DNA from: Cytophagales bacterium
GTDB taxonomy: Bacteria > Bacteroidota > Bacteroidia > Cytophagales > CCMP332
Length of the DNA stretch: 32,817 nucleotides
Direction: 5' to 3'
NCBI GenBank assembly: GCA_028282565.1
Contig: JANQHS010000161.1
Span: forward strand, 1-32,817
The notes beneath the pieces are model-generated. The model searched no databases. It was not told the DNA's origin and saw nothing but the letters and a program-made list of their open reading frames with translations. Positions within the stretch are counted from its first letter, which is position 1, and every line of letters starts with the position of its first letter. Positions 4,683 to 11,030 of the stretch are shown one piece after another. The position numbers and the translations under genes are program-made.

Positions 4683-5417
4683 TTATTCCAATCTTTTGTT
4701 TAAGGAAACCGGATTTCTCTTTTTTAGTAATCTGAGGTTCAAAATTTCAACCATAAGGGAGAAAAACACGGCAAAGTAGATATAGCCTTTGGGGATATGA
4801 TAGTGGAATGCTTCAACTGAGAGCATAAAACCAATGAGAATCAAAAATGAAAGGGCTAAAACCTGCAAAGTCGGATGTTCTTTGAGAAATCCACTGATAC
4901 CATTAGCAGAAAGCAACATGATCACCATGCCCAATACGATCGCGACTACCATGATGATCAGTTGGTCTGTCAATCCGACAGCTGTCAGGATGGAGTCAAA
5001 GGAGAATATCAGGTCCAAAACGATAATTTGAAAAATAACCCCCGTAAAGGTGTTGTTTGCGAACTCCGTCCCCGATTGTGTCTCACCTTCCAGATGATGA
5101 TGGATCTCCGTGGTACTCTTAAAGATCAGGAACAAGCCACCTCCCAGGAGAACCAGATCGCGAAAGCTGAAGTCGAATTGCCAAATGGATATTAATGGAT
5201 CTGTCAGTTTAACCAACCAGGAGATCCCGAACAGTAACATCAACCTAAAAAGCAGGGCGAGGCCCAGGCCGATGAATCTGGCCCGAGGCTGTTGGGCCGT
5301 GGGAAGTTTATTGGTAACTATGGAGACAAATATGACATTGTCGATCCCAAGAACAACCTCCAGAAAGGTCAGGGTGAGCAAGGCGATCCAGGCTTCGGTA
5401 GTGAGAAAAATTTCCAC
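4683..5417 (-). CDS. TerC family integral membrane protein
   Basis: The 244-residue protein has seven or so membrane helices and the acidic intramembrane motifs of the TerC family: E20 and D26 in FLEVVLGIDNVIF, and D135 and D141 in IIVLDLIFSFDSILTAVGL. These residues are proposed to bind metal ions. A His-rich loop (EIHHHLEGE, residues 104-112) lies between the halves. Family members (TerC, Alx, MeeY/YkoY) are linked to tellurium resistance and manganese export, including metal loading of exported enzymes. The start is GTG at 5417; no ATG is available upstream in frame. The gene stands alone, with the 5571 gene divergent from it. Confidence 0.92.
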   Translation of the reverse strand: MEIFLTTEAWIALLTLTFLEVVLGIDNVIFVSIVTNKLPTAQQPRARFIGLGLALLFRLMLLFGISWLVKLTDPLISIWQFDFSFRDLVLLGGGLFLIFKSTTEIHHHLEGETQSGTEFANNTFTGVIFQIIVLDLIFSFDSILTAVGLTDQLIIMVVAIVLGMVIMLLSANGISGFLKEHPTLQVLALSFLILIGFMLSVEAFHYHIPKGYIYFAVFFSLMVEILNLRLLKKRNPVSLNKRLE

Positions 5418-5515
5418 AGCGGTAGTTTGTTGATTTGAATTCCAAAATGTGAAATATTCAATATATCCCGGAAAAAAACGTTTGATTTAATCCCTTTGGC
5501 TCCATTTTTGGGCGA

Positions 5516-5550
5516 TTTGCATGGTAAACCAAGGGTAGGGGTTAAATTTG
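5516..5550 (+). promoter_or_regulatory. Promoter for the 5571-7918 gene group
   Basis: TTTG at 5516-5519 and TAAATTTG at 5543-5550, with a 23-nt spacer, match the Bacteroidota -33/-7 consensus. The expected start site near 5557 leaves a leader of about 14 nt before the ATG. Confidence 0.6.
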
Positions 5551-5570
5551 CGGCCCCTTAAGAATTCGAT

Positions 5571-6557
5571 ATGAAGTTTATTCTCATTTTTCTTTCTTCA
5601 TTCCTGTTGTTTTCGAGTGTTGAGAAGTCTGTGGTTGATTATTATGCTGATCAACTTAAGGTAGACCGGCAAAAGATCGAGGATGCGATCATCGCAGTGG
5701 CACGAGAGGAGGGCTTGGTCCAGGGGACAAGGGCCCTGGCGACCGTAAGCCGTGATTCATTTGATACCATCATCAAGGACCTTACTCCAAGACAACAGCA
5801 TGGTATGTATGAATTGATGAGAAGACCTGATCTTCTAAAGTCTTACTCTATTCCCAATCTTACCGATGAGGAGATCAGATTTGTTTTCAGAAACTACCCT
5901 CAGGAGATCGGGGACAACGCCATTGTCTTTCACAAGGAGCACCTGGATGTCCTGATCCAGCTCACCCTTCTAAATCAGTATGTGAAGCAGGAGTTTGGAA
6001 AGGTCCTCTTTGGTTACCCACCTGAAGCACAGGAGGCCATGCAATTTCTGGTTGATTTCCCACAGATCCTGGAATTGTTAACCAGGGAAACGGCGACTAA
6101 TAGAAAACTGAGAAAGACCTATCAAGAAAGGCCGGATCTGTTTGTAGCCACAGTTGACTCCATCGCAACTAAAATTTCGGATGAATACAATGGTTCGATT
6201 GACGAATGGGCAGAAAGTATCAAGTCCAACCCCGAAGCCCTCAAGGCTTTTGAAGAGGCAGCAGGGGTTTATGAATCCCATCAACAGGCCAAGCAGGAAA
6301 CCCATAATCAAACCATGATGGCCAAGAACCAGCAGAGCTATGAGGTTTCCGGAACCCAGCAGCAGTATTTTCAGCAATACGGAACCCACCGTGATCCAAA
6401 GAAGGGTTCCAATGTTCATGTGAGTGTATGGGTGGGCGCAGGCTATGGCTTCGGTTATGGAAGACCCTACTGGTATGGAAGTCCCTATATGGGTGGTGCG
6501 GGAGCGGTATATGGCGGGGCCTATTATAATCCATATCATAACCCTTACTGGTTCTAG
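5571..6557 (+). CDS. Secreted protein with Gly/Tyr-rich C-terminal tail, unknown function
   Basis: I do not recognise this 328-residue protein. A signal peptide (MKFILIFLSSFLLFSS) precedes a long, charged, mostly helical body (about 20-240). Residues 240-275 are rich in Gln and Asn (QQAKQETHNQTMMAKNQQ, then TQQQYFQQYG). The last 45 residues are strikingly rich in Gly, Tyr, Pro and Trp (GAGYGFGYGRPYWYGSPYMGG), ending PYHNPYWF. Such tails suggest surface adhesion, self-association or a glycine-rich spacer, but nothing here proves it. The protein should be exported. The next gene, a degenerate M48-like lipoprotein, begins after 3 nt in the same frame, so both are almost certainly one transcript. 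Confidence 0.85.
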   Translation: MKFILIFLSSFLLFSSVEKSVVDYYADQLKVDRQKIEDAIIAVAREEGLVQGTRALATVSRDSFDTIIKDLTPRQQHGMYELMRRPDLLKSYSIPNLTDEEIRFVFRNYPQEIGDNAIVFHKEHLDVLIQLTLLNQYVKQEFGKVLFGYPPEAQEAMQFLVDFPQILELLTRETATNRKLRKTYQERPDLFVATVDSIATKISDEYNGSIDEWAESIKSNPEALKAFEEAAGVYESHQQAKQETHNQTMMAKNQQSYEVSGTQQQYFQQYGTHRDPKKGSNVHVSVWVGAGYGFGYGRPYWYGSPYMGGAGAVYGGAYYNPYHNPYWF

Positions 6558-6560
6558 ATC

Positions 6561-7406
6561 GTGAGAAGCCCGGGTTTAAGATTTTCCACTTTTTTGATCG
6601 TGGCAGGGATTTTTGTCCTCGGATGTCAGGAATCGGAAGTTCCGGAAAACCAAGGCTTGGGCCTGCAGGAAGAACTCGATCTAGGAGCCATATTAGAAAA
6701 GGAGATAGATACGGCTTCAAGTAAATATGGACAACGTCTGAAGAGAGCTGATTATCAATCCCTGTATGATTATTTGGATGCCGTCCAGGATTCGGTATTA
6801 AAATCTGAACTGATCCTGAGAGGATCGGATATTCGCTTTGAGCCGATTATTCTTGCGGATGACAACAAATACCAGGCGTTTTCCTTGCCTGGCGGAGCCC
6901 ATTATTACTATACAGGCCTGCTTAAATATCTTGAAGATGAAAGCCAACTTGTTGCCTTGATGTCCAAAGAAATGAGCCATAATGATCGGATTGAGCCATT
7001 TACCAGGCTTGAGCTGAGGTATGGACAGGATATAATAGTCGATGTGATACAGGGAGGACAATCAAATCTTAGACAGGATATGATCGATCTTCTACTCGAG
7101 ATCGGTTATGATTCAGTAACCGAGCTAAGCGCCGACCACAGCTCTGTCGATTATCTATGTGGAAACTCATATCTCCCAGCCGGATTGGCAAGGATCTATG
7201 AACGAGCCATGCTGGATTCGATACAGATGGATACCATCTTGGTCCTCAATCCGGAGGGAATTCTTAGGCAGTACTTCACCTTCTACTCTCTGAGTATGAT
7301 CAGGTCGAATGAGATCAGAACGAGGGTGGATTCAACTGCCTGCACCGGTGACTCCTTGTACTCGGATCGCTACCAGAGTTTCGTGGATCTACTCAATGCC
7401 ATATGA
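6561..7406 (+). CDS. Lipoprotein resembling an M48 peptidase with a degenerate zinc motif
   Basis: The 281-residue protein has a lipoprotein signal (lipobox VLGC, C22). Residues 103-140 follow the M48/BepA layout: KYQAFSLPGGAHYYYTGLLKYLEDESQLVALMSKEMSH lines up with the usual NAFATPGG...GLL..ENEDELAAVLAHEIAH. The HExxH zinc motif is replaced by KEMSH (136-140): the first His is Lys, while E137 and H140 remain. The downstream ELSAD (188-192) matches the third-ligand EREAD motif. It is therefore probably a catalytically dead or altered envelope peptidase homologue; the family assignment is an inference from pattern alone. The start is GTG at 6561, 3 nt after the upstream stop; its end overlaps the dcd ATG by 4 nt (ATGA). 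Confidence 0.75.
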   Translation: MRSPGLRFSTFLIVAGIFVLGCQESEVPENQGLGLQEELDLGAILEKEIDTASSKYGQRLKRADYQSLYDYLDAVQDSVLKSELILRGSDIRFEPIILADDNKYQAFSLPGGAHYYYTGLLKYLEDESQLVALMSKEMSHNDRIEPFTRLELRYGQDIIVDVIQGGQSNLRQDMIDLLLEIGYDSVTELSADHSSVDYLCGNSYLPAGLARIYERAMLDSIQMDTILVLNPEGILRQYFTFYSLSMIRSNEIRTRVDSTACTGDSLYSDRYQSFVDLLNAI

Positions 7407-7918
7407 TATTATCAGGAAAGGAAATATTAGCAAGATTAGGTGAAGACATTATCATCGAACCATTCGATGAAAAACAGATCAATTCTAATAGCTATAATCT
7501 AAAGCTTCATAATGAGCTACTCGTCTACAAAGACCATGAGCTCGACATGAAGAAGGATAATGGAATTGAACGGATCATAATCGGTGAAGAAGGTTTCTTG
7601 CTGGAGCCTGGAAGGATCTACCTGGCAAGAACATTGGAGCGTCTGGAGACCCATAATCTGGTTCCCTTTCTGGAAGGAAGGTCATCCATAGGAAGATTGG
7701 GACTCCATGTGCACATCACAGCGGGGCTCGGCCAGGTAGGGTCAAAGGGTTATTGGACCCTGGAACTACAGGCGATCCAACCCCTCAGGATCTATCCCGG
7801 TATACAGATCTGCCAGATCTATTTTTCTGAGATCAAGGGAGACTTCTCCTCCTATTCGAACAAGTACTTCAATAGCAGGGATATTCAATCCAGCCTCTTG
7901 TTCAAAGAATTTGAATAG
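7403..7918 (+). CDS. dcd: dCTP deaminase
   Basis: The 171-residue enzyme deaminates dCTP to dUTP for thymidylate synthesis. The signature EGRSSIGRLGLHVHITAG (91-108) supplies the phosphate-binding Arg-Ser-Ser, and the catalytic glutamate lies in the WTLEL segment (E121). The loop GLGQVGSKGYWTLEL differs from the DPGxxG of E. coli but, as far as I recall, agrees with the variant common in Bacteroidota. The start overlaps the preceding lipoprotein gene as ATGA, implying translational coupling to envelope proteins that have no obvious link to nucleotide metabolism. Length is slightly short compared with E. coli Dcd (193). Confidence 0.93.
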   Translation: MILSGKEILARLGEDIIIEPFDEKQINSNSYNLKLHNELLVYKDHELDMKKDNGIERIIIGEEGFLLEPGRIYLARTLERLETHNLVPFLEGRSSIGRLGLHVHITAGLGQVGSKGYWTLELQAIQPLRIYPGIQICQIYFSEIKGDFSSYSNKYFNSRDIQSSLLFKEFE

Positions 7919-8010
7919 GCGTCCTTACTCTGGCAGGATTAGTTTTTTACCTGATTTCTGTCAGTGATTCTTTTTTTCTCGACAGCTACTATTGGGCAAA
8001 TTGAAGAGTC

Positions 8011-9279
8011 ATGGAAGCCCATAAATTTCAGATCCTTGTTCTTGGCGGTGGAACCGGTGGAGTCATTGCAGCAGCTCAATTGAAAAGGAAGGATCCCAGT
8101 TTGGATATTGGGATCATTGAACCAAATGAAAAACACTACTACCAACCCGCCTGGACCCTTGTAGGAGCGGGTACCTTTGACCTTGAAAAGACCATCAGAA
8201 ATGAAAAGGATGTCATTCCCAAGGGTGTAAAATGGATCAAGGGAAGGGTGGCCGAGGTCATTCCTGCTGACAATATGGTCAAATTGGAGGATGGAAGATT
8301 TTTCAGTTATGAAGAGCTGATCGTTGCTGTAGGAATTCAGATCAATTACGATGCTATCCCGGGACTAAAGGAGGGAATCGGAAACAACGGGATTACCACC
8401 AATTACGACCCGGCATATGCGGAATACACCTTTGAATGCCTGAAAAAGATCAAAAAGGGCAATGCCTTGTTTACCCAAGCCCCAACCCCAATAAAATGCG
8501 GTGGTGCTCCTCAAAAGATCACATACCTGGGAGACCACTATTTCCGGAAAAAGGGAAAAAGAGATGAAATCAATGTGATCCTGGCACTTCCGGGAACCAA
8601 GATCTTCGGAGTTCCGAAGTTTGAGAAGCTTTTGGACAATGTGGTTAGAACCAGGGATATCCATGCCCGTTTCTTTCATGAGCTTGTAGAGATCCGTCCG
8701 GATAAGAAGGAAGCGGTATACGTGATCGGACAGGCGAACACCAATCCGGATTATCTCAAGGAAGATGCGAACATGAACATCAGGATCGAAGATAGTTTTA
8801 AGGTGGTCATTCCCTTTGAGATCATGCACCTGGCACCCCCGCAAAGCGCCCCTGATTTTATCAAGAACAGTCCCTTGGCTGTGCATGATAGTCCATGGGG
8901 ATGGGTAGACGTGGATCAATACACCCTACAACATAGTCGCTTCAAAAATGTATGGTCGTTGGGTGATGTTGCCAGCACGCCAAACGCGAAAACCGGGGCT
9001 TCGATTAGAAAACAGGCTCCGGTTCTTGTCAAGAACCTGCTTACGAAGATCAACGGAGGAGATATTCAGAGGGATTATGCCACTTACAATGGCTATGCAA
9101 GTTGTCCTATTGTGACAAGATACGGCAGAATGGTCCTAGCGGAATTTGATTACCATAACAATCCGACGCCGTCTTTTCCCATCAATATGGCCAAGGAAAG
9201 GTACTCGATGTGGGTACTGAAAAAATACGGACTGCCCTGGTTGTATTGGAATAAAATGTTGAAGGGGGACGATTTCTAA
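8011..9279 (+). CDS. sqr: Sulfide:quinone oxidoreductase, type II-like
   Basis: This 422-residue flavoprotein opens with the FAD-binding GGGTGG (12-17). It has the SQR-typical HYYQPAWTLVGAG (42-54), PTPIKCGGAPQK (158-169), a second FAD segment SLGDVASTPNAKTGAS (316-331) and YASCPIVTRYG (362-372). The redox pair is C163 and C365, the same spacing context as in the mitochondrial SQOR type. The enzyme oxidises sulfide to persulfide and passes electrons to quinone at the membrane; the aromatic C-terminal region (LPWLYWNKML) probably provides membrane association. No persulfide dioxygenase or rhodanese lies beside it. Its stop overlaps that of the convergent histidine kinase by 4 nt. A role in sulfide detoxification is the likely meaning in a heterotroph. 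Confidence 0.93.
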   Translation: MEAHKFQILVLGGGTGGVIAAAQLKRKDPSLDIGIIEPNEKHYYQPAWTLVGAGTFDLEKTIRNEKDVIPKGVKWIKGRVAEVIPADNMVKLEDGRFFSYEELIVAVGIQINYDAIPGLKEGIGNNGITTNYDPAYAEYTFECLKKIKKGNALFTQAPTPIKCGGAPQKITYLGDHYFRKKGKRDEINVILALPGTKIFGVPKFEKLLDNVVRTRDIHARFFHELVEIRPDKKEAVYVIGQANTNPDYLKEDANMNIRIEDSFKVVIPFEIMHLAPPQSAPDFIKNSPLAVHDSPWGWVDVDQYTLQHSRFKNVWSLGDVASTPNAKTGASIRKQAPVLVKNLLTKINGGDIQRDYATYNGYASCPIVTRYGRMVLAEFDYHNNPTPSFPINMAKERYSMWVLKKYGLPWLYWNKMLKGDDF

Positions 9280-11030
9280 ACAGGCATCTCAGGGAACCTT
9301 AAGGTAAACGTCGCCCCCTTGCCCGGATTGCCTTCAGCCTCGACCTGACCTTGGTGTTCTGTGACGATTTTTTTGACGATCGAAAGACCCATTCCCGTTC
9401 CGCCGGTTTTTTCATTGGAGGTGAAAAATGGCTCAAAGATCTTTTCCTTGTCGGATTGATGAAATCCCCTTCCGGAATCAGATATTGTGACCTTAATTGT
9501 GCCTTCAGTGGAATCTTCCGTTTTGACTCTGAGAATGCCGGAGCTTCCCATGGCGGTGATGGCATTTCGGAACAAATTGATGAACATTTGCTTCAGTTGT
9601 GAAGCTGCACCGTTGATAATTCGATCTGACCGAAGATCCGTTTCGATCACAATTCCTTCTTCAATGGACTGAGCCATGAGCTTGAGGGAAGACTCAATGA
9701 TCTCATTAAGATTTGAAGGCCTTTTTTCCCGGTTGCCTTCCTTTCCAAATTCACCGATCTCCGCGATGATCTCACCGGCATGCGTGGATCCCTGTTCAAG
9801 ATTTTCGATCAGCTCCTCAGCTTCTATTCTCACCTGATCCAATTCCTTCTTCTCTTCTTCGCTTAAAGATTTTCCGGGCAGTTTCATCAAAAACCGGATA
9901 TCTCGTTTTAAGGGTGGAATACTCGCCTTCAGATAGTTCAACATGTTGTTCACCTCATGGTTGACCACAGCTGAGATCTGCCCAATGGCTGATAATTTCT
10001 CTGCCTGCACCAACTGCGACTGGGTTTCTTTCAGGTCACCCAAGGCCTTATCCAATGATTCGGATTTCGATTTCAAATTGATGTTGGCCTGTATCAATTT
10101 GTTCTCCGCGGATTTTCGGGATCTGATCTCTTTTTGAAGACTTTGATTCCAAAATATCACGAAGATGATCACCACGCCAAGGGCTATCAGGCCAATGGAG
10201 AAGAACCGTATATACTTCCTTTTGATCCCTGATTGCAGACTGACCTCAAAGAATTCTCTTCTCATCTCTGCTTTTTCAACCGGAGTGAGTGAACGCAGCC
10301 CTTTGTTGATGATGCCGATGAGGAGATCATATTCAGGCAATGCAGCCATATGAATTTCAATCTCTTCGAATACTGATGGGATCACCTTTAGATCACTATA
10401 ATTCCCCTTTTCGATGAAATACATGGCAACGGTAAAATCCATCACCATGGCATCGATCTCTCCATGATCCAAAGACTCGAATCCCTCCGGAATTGAGGGG
10501 ACATCTACATAGCTAAACCTGCCAAAACGCTTTCGGAGTTGGTCCGTGATCCAATAGCCCTTGATCACACCGATTCTTAACCCTGCCAGATCATTTTCGT
10601 CGAAGATCCTTTTTGAACGATCAGAAGTGACGATCACAAATTCTCCGGATAGGTATGGATCGGTAAAGACCAATAACCTTTCCCTTGTTTTGTTTTTTGC
10701 AATGGAACTAACCATAACGGTCTTCCCCTCCTGGAAGAGTTTTTTTAATCCTGTCCAGGAATCCGATCGGATATAGGTGAATTTTAGTCCTGTGATTTCG
10801 GATAACCTGTCAAGGTAATTCTTTGAGATCCCCCGATGTACTCCGTCTTCTGAAAAATCATAAGGTGCCCAGTCCGGATCACCGGAATAAAACACCTCCG
10901 GGTTATTTCTGATCCATTCCAATTCCTCTTGGGTAAACTCCACCTTTTCCGAAGCCCGACTATTTTCAGCAAATACAATTAAGCCGAAAATACAGCCTAT
11001 GATCGCAAGTAATGGTTTTGAAAAAGGCAT
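9276..11030 (-). CDS. Sensor histidine kinase with periplasmic solute-binding (SBP_bac_3) domain
   Basis: The 584-residue protein has a signal/anchor (1-26), a bacterial solute-binding family 3 domain (about 30-265), a transmembrane helix (about 274-294), a coiled linker (298-345), and a kinase core. The phosphoacceptor is H358 in VVNHEVNN, the N box carries N489 in NLFRNAITAM, followed by DSGRGF (518-523) and GGTGMGLS (543-550). The periplasmic part should bind an amino acid-like or small polar ligand and control autophosphorylation. No PAS and no receiver domain are present, and no response regulator gene lies within the window, so it is an orphan here. It starts 12 nt behind the small T9SS-domain gene and may be co-transcribed with it. 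Confidence 0.93.
   Translation of the reverse strand: MPFSKPLLAIIGCIFGLIVFAENSRASEKVEFTQEELEWIRNNPEVFYSGDPDWAPYDFSEDGVHRGISKNYLDRLSEITGLKFTYIRSDSWTGLKKLFQEGKTVMVSSIAKNKTRERLLVFTDPYLSGEFVIVTSDRSKRIFDENDLAGLRIGVIKGYWITDQLRKRFGRFSYVDVPSIPEGFESLDHGEIDAMVMDFTVAMYFIEKGNYSDLKVIPSVFEEIEIHMAALPEYDLLIGIINKGLRSLTPVEKAEMRREFFEVSLQSGIKRKYIRFFSIGLIALGVVIIFVIFWNQSLQKEIRSRKSAENKLIQANINLKSKSESLDKALGDLKETQSQLVQAEKLSAIGQISAVVNHEVNNMLNYLKASIPPLKRDIRFLMKLPGKSLSEEEKKELDQVRIEAEELIENLEQGSTHAGEIIAEIGEFGKEGNREKRPSNLNEIIESSLKLMAQSIEEGIVIETDLRSDRIINGAASQLKQMFINLFRNAITAMGSSGILRVKTEDSTEGTIKVTISDSGRGFHQSDKEKIFEPFFTSNEKTGGTGMGLSIVKKIVTEHQGQVEAEGNPGKGATFTLRFPEMPV

Follow-up and report, generated by a model that had tools for sequence, protein, structure and literature searches.

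A lineage-specific M48-fold lipoprotein with a dismantled zinc site, very probably a pseudoprotease, in a small family of Cytophagales

For M48 proteases of the BepA type, it has been proposed that they both assist and destroy one and the same set of outer-membrane clients, and mutation has not readily separated these activities. A natural clade with the client-binding surface but devoid of the zinc site would test the M48 fold as a chaperone alone. A candidate for such a clade was encountered in a stretch of 32,817 nucleotides from a Cytophagales bacterium (contig JANQHS010000161.1, hereafter the window), in which the product of an open reading frame at 6561..7406 resembles an M48 peptidase with the zinc motif HExxH replaced by KEMSH. 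The question raised by this locus was whether it encodes a pseudoprotease, as the original prediction proposed, an enzyme with altered metal use, which the same prediction had allowed for, or a gene in decay.

A predicted envelope lipoprotein of M48 fold

The frame at 6561..7406 on the forward strand is intact from its GTG start to its TGA stop and encodes a protein of 281 aa. Its coordinates had been given correctly, and the motifs on which the M48 likeness was first based are present exactly in the order described, with LPGG (residues 109-112) and GLL (119-121) followed by KEMSH (136-140) and ELSAD (188-192). A hydrophobic N-terminus precedes the lipobox VLGC (6615..6626, forward strand), the cysteine of which (Cys22, the predicted site of a lipid anchor) is invariant across the three orthologues described below; the product is thus predicted to be a lipoprotein and would reside in the envelope. 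The residues that follow, QESE in the window protein, are acidic in all three orthologues (CQESE, CKDPE and CNESSE). They do not fit the minimal export signal of surface-exposed Bacteroidota lipoproteins (LES), K-(D/E)2 or Q-A-(D/E)2, as defined in Capnocytophaga (PMC5080379), although the signal of this lineage may differ.

When searched on its own, the protein matched the Pfam M48 family (PF01435) with an E value of 4.9e-6 (26.9 bits against a cut-off of 20.3), and both orthologues also passed individually (E 2.3e-4 and 1e-7; 21.5 and 32.4 bits against 20.3). The intact M48 paralogue from the same genome matched the family at E 3.8e-31. The NCBIfam BepA model aligned with residues 84-140 below threshold (18 bits against a cut-off of 570), and a profile of seven relatives retrieved the M48 structure 3c37 at E 9e-43. 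Judged from the Pfam matches, the M48 homology of the protein is beyond chance. An AlphaFold2 model, computed from 15 sequences (the window protein, the orthologue from the sister species and 13 intact M48 homologues), had a mean pLDDT of 82.7 and a pTM of 0.79, with the core mostly above 90. Comparison of this model with the PDB by Foldseek returned confident matches solely to M48 proteins, the best being 3c37 (E 9e-10; TM 0.67/0.83, the value of 0.83 by target length), and E. coli BepA was matched at E 2e-6 to 5e-5. Due to the 13 intact homologues in the alignment, the fold match is partly dependent on homology, whereas the single-sequence Pfam matches are independent of it. The structural check that had been proposed for the M48 likeness was therefore passed, and sequence profile and predicted three-dimensional fold both place the protein in the M48 family.

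The best structural match, the Geobacter sulfurreducens M48 lipoprotease (Q74D82, PDB 3c37), likewise folds as a single M48 domain of equal size, with a PGG edge-strand region and a plug loop. It differs in that its zinc site is intact (HExxH, ExxxD and STHP), whereas the window protein retains H140 and E188 of the four ligands. E. coli BepA, an M48 protein of outer-membrane protein quality control, shares the protease-domain fold (E 2e-6) and the edge strand. However, BepA carries a TPR domain and all four ligands, whereas the window protein has K136 and Y242 in place of two ligands and consists, by sequence and by model, of the protease-like domain alone. The intact M48 lipoproteins found in Bacteroidota, among them the paralogues from the three genomes discussed here (L002, L005 and L008), are alike in length, lipobox, fold, C-terminal cysteine and motif order, but possess the HExxH, the downstream histidine and the STHP motif, and the genomic setting of the paralogue is a different one (CoA-transferase, gldC).

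The zinc site and its loss across the clade

Homologues were sought at the level of the order (391 genomes) and of the class (395 genomes), and 83 distinct ones were read. Among the genomes searched, the family of the source organism is represented by three, namely the window genome, that of a sister species (G001) and one from another genus, which is complete (G002), and each encodes one broken protein. All 80 other M48 relatives carry an intact HExxH together with the third-ligand glutamate, as do 13 further loci from named genomes, which are partly the same proteins. In the tree the three broken proteins group together (support 99/97), on very long branches that make any one sister clade among the intact M48 proteins uncertain. 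The orthologue from the other genus is 29-30% identical. No new member was found with a profile of the two closest broken copies in 396 phylum-wide genomes (E ≤ 1e-25), the window protein on its own gave no match in a search of genome contigs, scans of viral contigs found no relatives, and no description of an M48 clade of this kind was found in a literature search. Since the orthologues, which come from two independent assemblies, also lack the first histidine, sequencing error and isolated mutation were both dismissed as causes of the broken motif. In the family designated f5, by way of a separate observation, intact M48 lipoproteins occur as tandem pairs (L010 in G068 and L015 in G095).

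In BepA the zinc is held by H136, H140 and E201, and by the plug residue H246 of the HPx4R motif (PMC7950410), and these four positions align with K136, H140, E188 and Y242 of the window protein. The degenerate HExxH of the window protein (6966..6980, forward strand) reads KEMSH, that of the sister species KEMTH and that of the other genus REMSY. The first histidine, present in 77 of the 77 intact homologues to which the columns were compared, is thus K, K and R in the three broken proteins; a basic residue occupies the position clade-wide, and no orthologue with an intact HExxH was found. The second histidine, H140, is kept in two of the three, and the REMSY orthologue is without it. The third-ligand motif, ELSAD in the window protein (7122..7136, forward strand), EEGAD in the sister species and ELKGD in the other genus, retains its glutamate (E188) and aspartate (D192) in all three, as is also the case for E137 at the position of the catalytic glutamate. 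The original prediction of a lost first histidine with the glutamate and the third-ligand motif preserved therefore applies to the whole clade, while retention of the second histidine applies within the genus only.

A further ligand, overlooked in that prediction, has also been lost. The active-site plug, LSTHPxPxxR in intact homologues, has degenerated to FTFYSLSMIRS (residues 239-249; 7275..7307, forward strand), such that the plug histidine at 242 (H246 of BepA, in the STHPxPxxR motif) is tyrosine in all three broken proteins and histidine in 77 of 77 intact ones, with the plug arginine (R248) kept in all three. The distal histidine of HExxHADRRH, at position 145, is similarly present in 77 of 77 intact homologues and replaced by E, E and L. 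Of the features that mark an active M48 protease, an HExxH with both zinc histidines is found in none of the three orthologues, the glutamate of ExxxD is found in all three, and the HPx4R plug has lost its regulatory fourth-ligand histidine and kept its arginine. Of the 50 columns that are near-invariant among the 77 intact homologues, 15 have changed in every one of the broken proteins and 20 have been retained throughout; the broken proteins individually depart from 19-26 of these columns, compared with a mean of 0.9 and a maximum of 8 for the intact ones. On the residues present, the window protein would be unable to build the usual zinc site, and zinc catalysis has very likely been lost in the clade, presumably with loss of proteolysis.

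These ligand states also bear on the suggestion of a metalloenzyme with altered metal use, in which H140 and E188 would be joined by E137 or another residue as ligands. E137 and E188 are indeed invariant and H140 is present in two of the three proteins. The third orthologue, however, has REMSY and no plug histidine and so shares no such site, and zinc binding is not to be expected of a lysine or arginine that takes the place of a ligand (PMC3650047). With no ligand set, and hence no metal site, common to the three proteins, this part of the original prediction did not hold, and we consider an altered-metal enzyme highly improbable.

Loss of so many core residues could alternatively mark a decaying gene, a redundant duplicate under relaxed selection with no function left. 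Between the window and the sister species, dN is 0.38 for the broken pair and 0.18 for the intact paralogue pair, about a twofold difference in amino-acid change, and the branches are very long, as decay would have it. The frame nevertheless is open in all three genomes, lipobox and gene order have been kept, and the 20 of 50 core columns that persist in every copy speak against decay, as does the comparison of site classes, with synonymous sites saturated and only 30% of non-synonymous sites different (pN 0.297, pS 0.884; NG86 proportions). The gene is thus constrained by purifying selection, less or differently than its active relative, and decay appears very unlikely. Ligands lost clade-wide from a frame under purifying selection, the pattern by which a pseudoprotease is recognised, were found here in three genomes. 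Together with the intact state of the 80 other homologues, this upheld the pseudoprotease reading, and we are highly confident that the clade represents a real, conserved and lineage-specific M48 pseudoprotease.

A possible client-binding role

The edge strand of BepA lies next to the active site and contacts the client LptD (residues 105-107 were tested), and it is needed for both degradation and chaperone-like function, the latter being attributed by the authors to repressed proteolysis (PMC8423444). The corresponding region of the window protein, Q105-A-F-S-L-P-G-G112 (6873..6896, forward strand), equates to NAFATPGG of intact homologues and to N105-A106-F107 of BepA, and the AlphaFold2 model has strands at 106-108 and 113-117. 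All three broken proteins retain F107 and P110-G112, as well as C261.

From these features the following course of events can be envisaged. The ancestor would have been a BepA/LoiP-like zinc lipoprotease of the sort common in Bacteroidota, one copy of which, in a small Cytophagales family, lost zinc binding through replacement of the histidine at 136 by lysine or arginine, of the plug histidine by tyrosine, of the distal histidine by glutamate or leucine and, in one species, of the second histidine. Selection would have maintained the fold and cleft, the edge-strand region, the lipid anchor and the place in the operon. In the manner of BepA, unfolded or client polypeptides of the envelope may then dock on the edge strand flanking the cleft, to be held or handed on instead of cleaved. 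The basic residue at 136 could pair with Glu137 or Glu188 by a putative salt bridge and so replace the structural charge of the metal. Client binding, the holdase role and charge compensation are all inferred for this protein, and we regard a membrane-anchored pseudoprotease of M48 fold, binding clients via its edge strand without cutting them, as an evenly balanced proposition. If pseudoprotease status is granted, the chance that the mechanism is that of a holdase is again about half. More tentatively, and with a probability well short of even, remodelling of the active site by a basic residue and a tyrosine in place of two ligands may have turned an envelope quality-control protease into a dedicated client-binding chaperone, a naturally uncoupled form of the chaperone-like activity of BepA.

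The basic residue at 136 has precedent among substituted zincins such as members of the CLCA family, in which the first and second histidines of HExxH are replaced by lysine or arginine more often than expected and in a non-random manner (PMC3650047). The broken clade fits this trend and offers a clear case of a known, unexplained replacement, although the substituted zincins of that study belong to zincin families other than the M48 clade described here.

Several observations count against the client-binding reading. The edge strand itself is altered in the broken clade, with N105 replaced by Q, Q and R, and A106 kept in two proteins and replaced by I in one. The TPR domain of BepA is absent, and the clade amounts to three genomes, in which the third orthologue shares no more than 29-30% identity. 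Moreover, in the protease-dead E137Q mutant of BepA, chaperone-like activity is weakened, LptD maturation is supported weakly and the mutant is dominant-negative (PMC7950410, PMC8423444). Losing catalysis does not, therefore, automatically leave a good chaperone, and a decoy or regulatory subunit, which would pair with the intact M48 paralogue or compete for its substrates and thereby tune activity, is also a reasonable model. It is favoured by the dominance of protease-dead BepA over wild type (PMC7950410) and by the coexistence of an intact paralogue in all three genomes (L002, HEIAH; L005, HEVAH; L008, HEIAH). The intact paralogue is, however, located elsewhere (L103:8211-9373, with equivalents in L104 and L105), beside CoA-transferase-like and GldC-like gliding-motility genes in all three genomes, and the identity of about 23% between broken and intact proteins does not imply shared substrates or dimers. 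We consider the decoy model fairly unlikely, and the client-binding pseudoprotease is retained as the preferred reading.

Gene neighbourhood

The GTG start at 6561 lies 3 bp past the stop of the preceding gene (5571..6557, forward strand), which encodes P0002, a putative secreted protein with a Gly/Tyr-rich tail, and the 3' end overlaps the next gene, a dcd-type gene of the dCTP deaminase family (7403..7918, forward strand), by 4 bp (ATGA). No terminator-like sites were found within 5300-8100, where promoter-like sites occur near chance level, and from its spacing the stretch 5571-7918 is likely to form an operon. Upstream, a divergent gene for a TerC-family membrane protein (4683..5417, reverse strand) has counterparts nearby in all three genomes.

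The close spacing of P0002 and the lipoprotein, an arrangement kept in the sister species, where P0002 is 72% identical, would accord with a structural anchor or adaptor that holds the Gly/Tyr-tailed protein at the envelope. The other-genus genome, in contrast, has two other genes in the place of P0002 and yet keeps both the pseudoprotease and dcd, and an anchoring function thus seems rather improbable. Coupling to the Gly/Tyr-tailed protein, as originally proposed, stands within the genus and fails in the third genome, dcd being the more deeply conserved partner and adjacent in all three. P0002 has a helical N-terminal part and belongs to no Pfam family, and a model of the protein (pLDDT 38) was too poor to judge. 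Four other genomes of the order encode distant relatives, scattered among its members; the one that was read carries a long tail rich in Gly and Tyr and has no M48 gene as a neighbour.

In the remaining dcd loci retrieved from the order, dcd had no M48-like gene beside it. An ancestral M48-dcd neighbourhood is not backed by these loci, and the pair therefore probably originated within the family.

Each of the three genomes encodes a second dCTP-deaminase-family paralogue in addition to that at 7403-7918 (L103:12386-12922, L104:10396-10932 and L105:14839-15375). The intact M48 paralogue is a few kb away from it, and M48 and dCTP deaminase genes are thereby linked at both sites in every one of the three genomes, which could be chance. 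Further downstream in the window, 8011-9279 encodes an FAD/NAD-dependent oxidoreductase, for which the best NCBIfam match was a type III sulfide:quinone reductase of the selenoprotein subtype (229.9 bits against a cut-off of 525), and the product of 9276-11030, on the reverse strand, resembles a histidine kinase and carries a HATPase domain as well as a solute-binding domain (SBP_bac_3) at its N-terminus.
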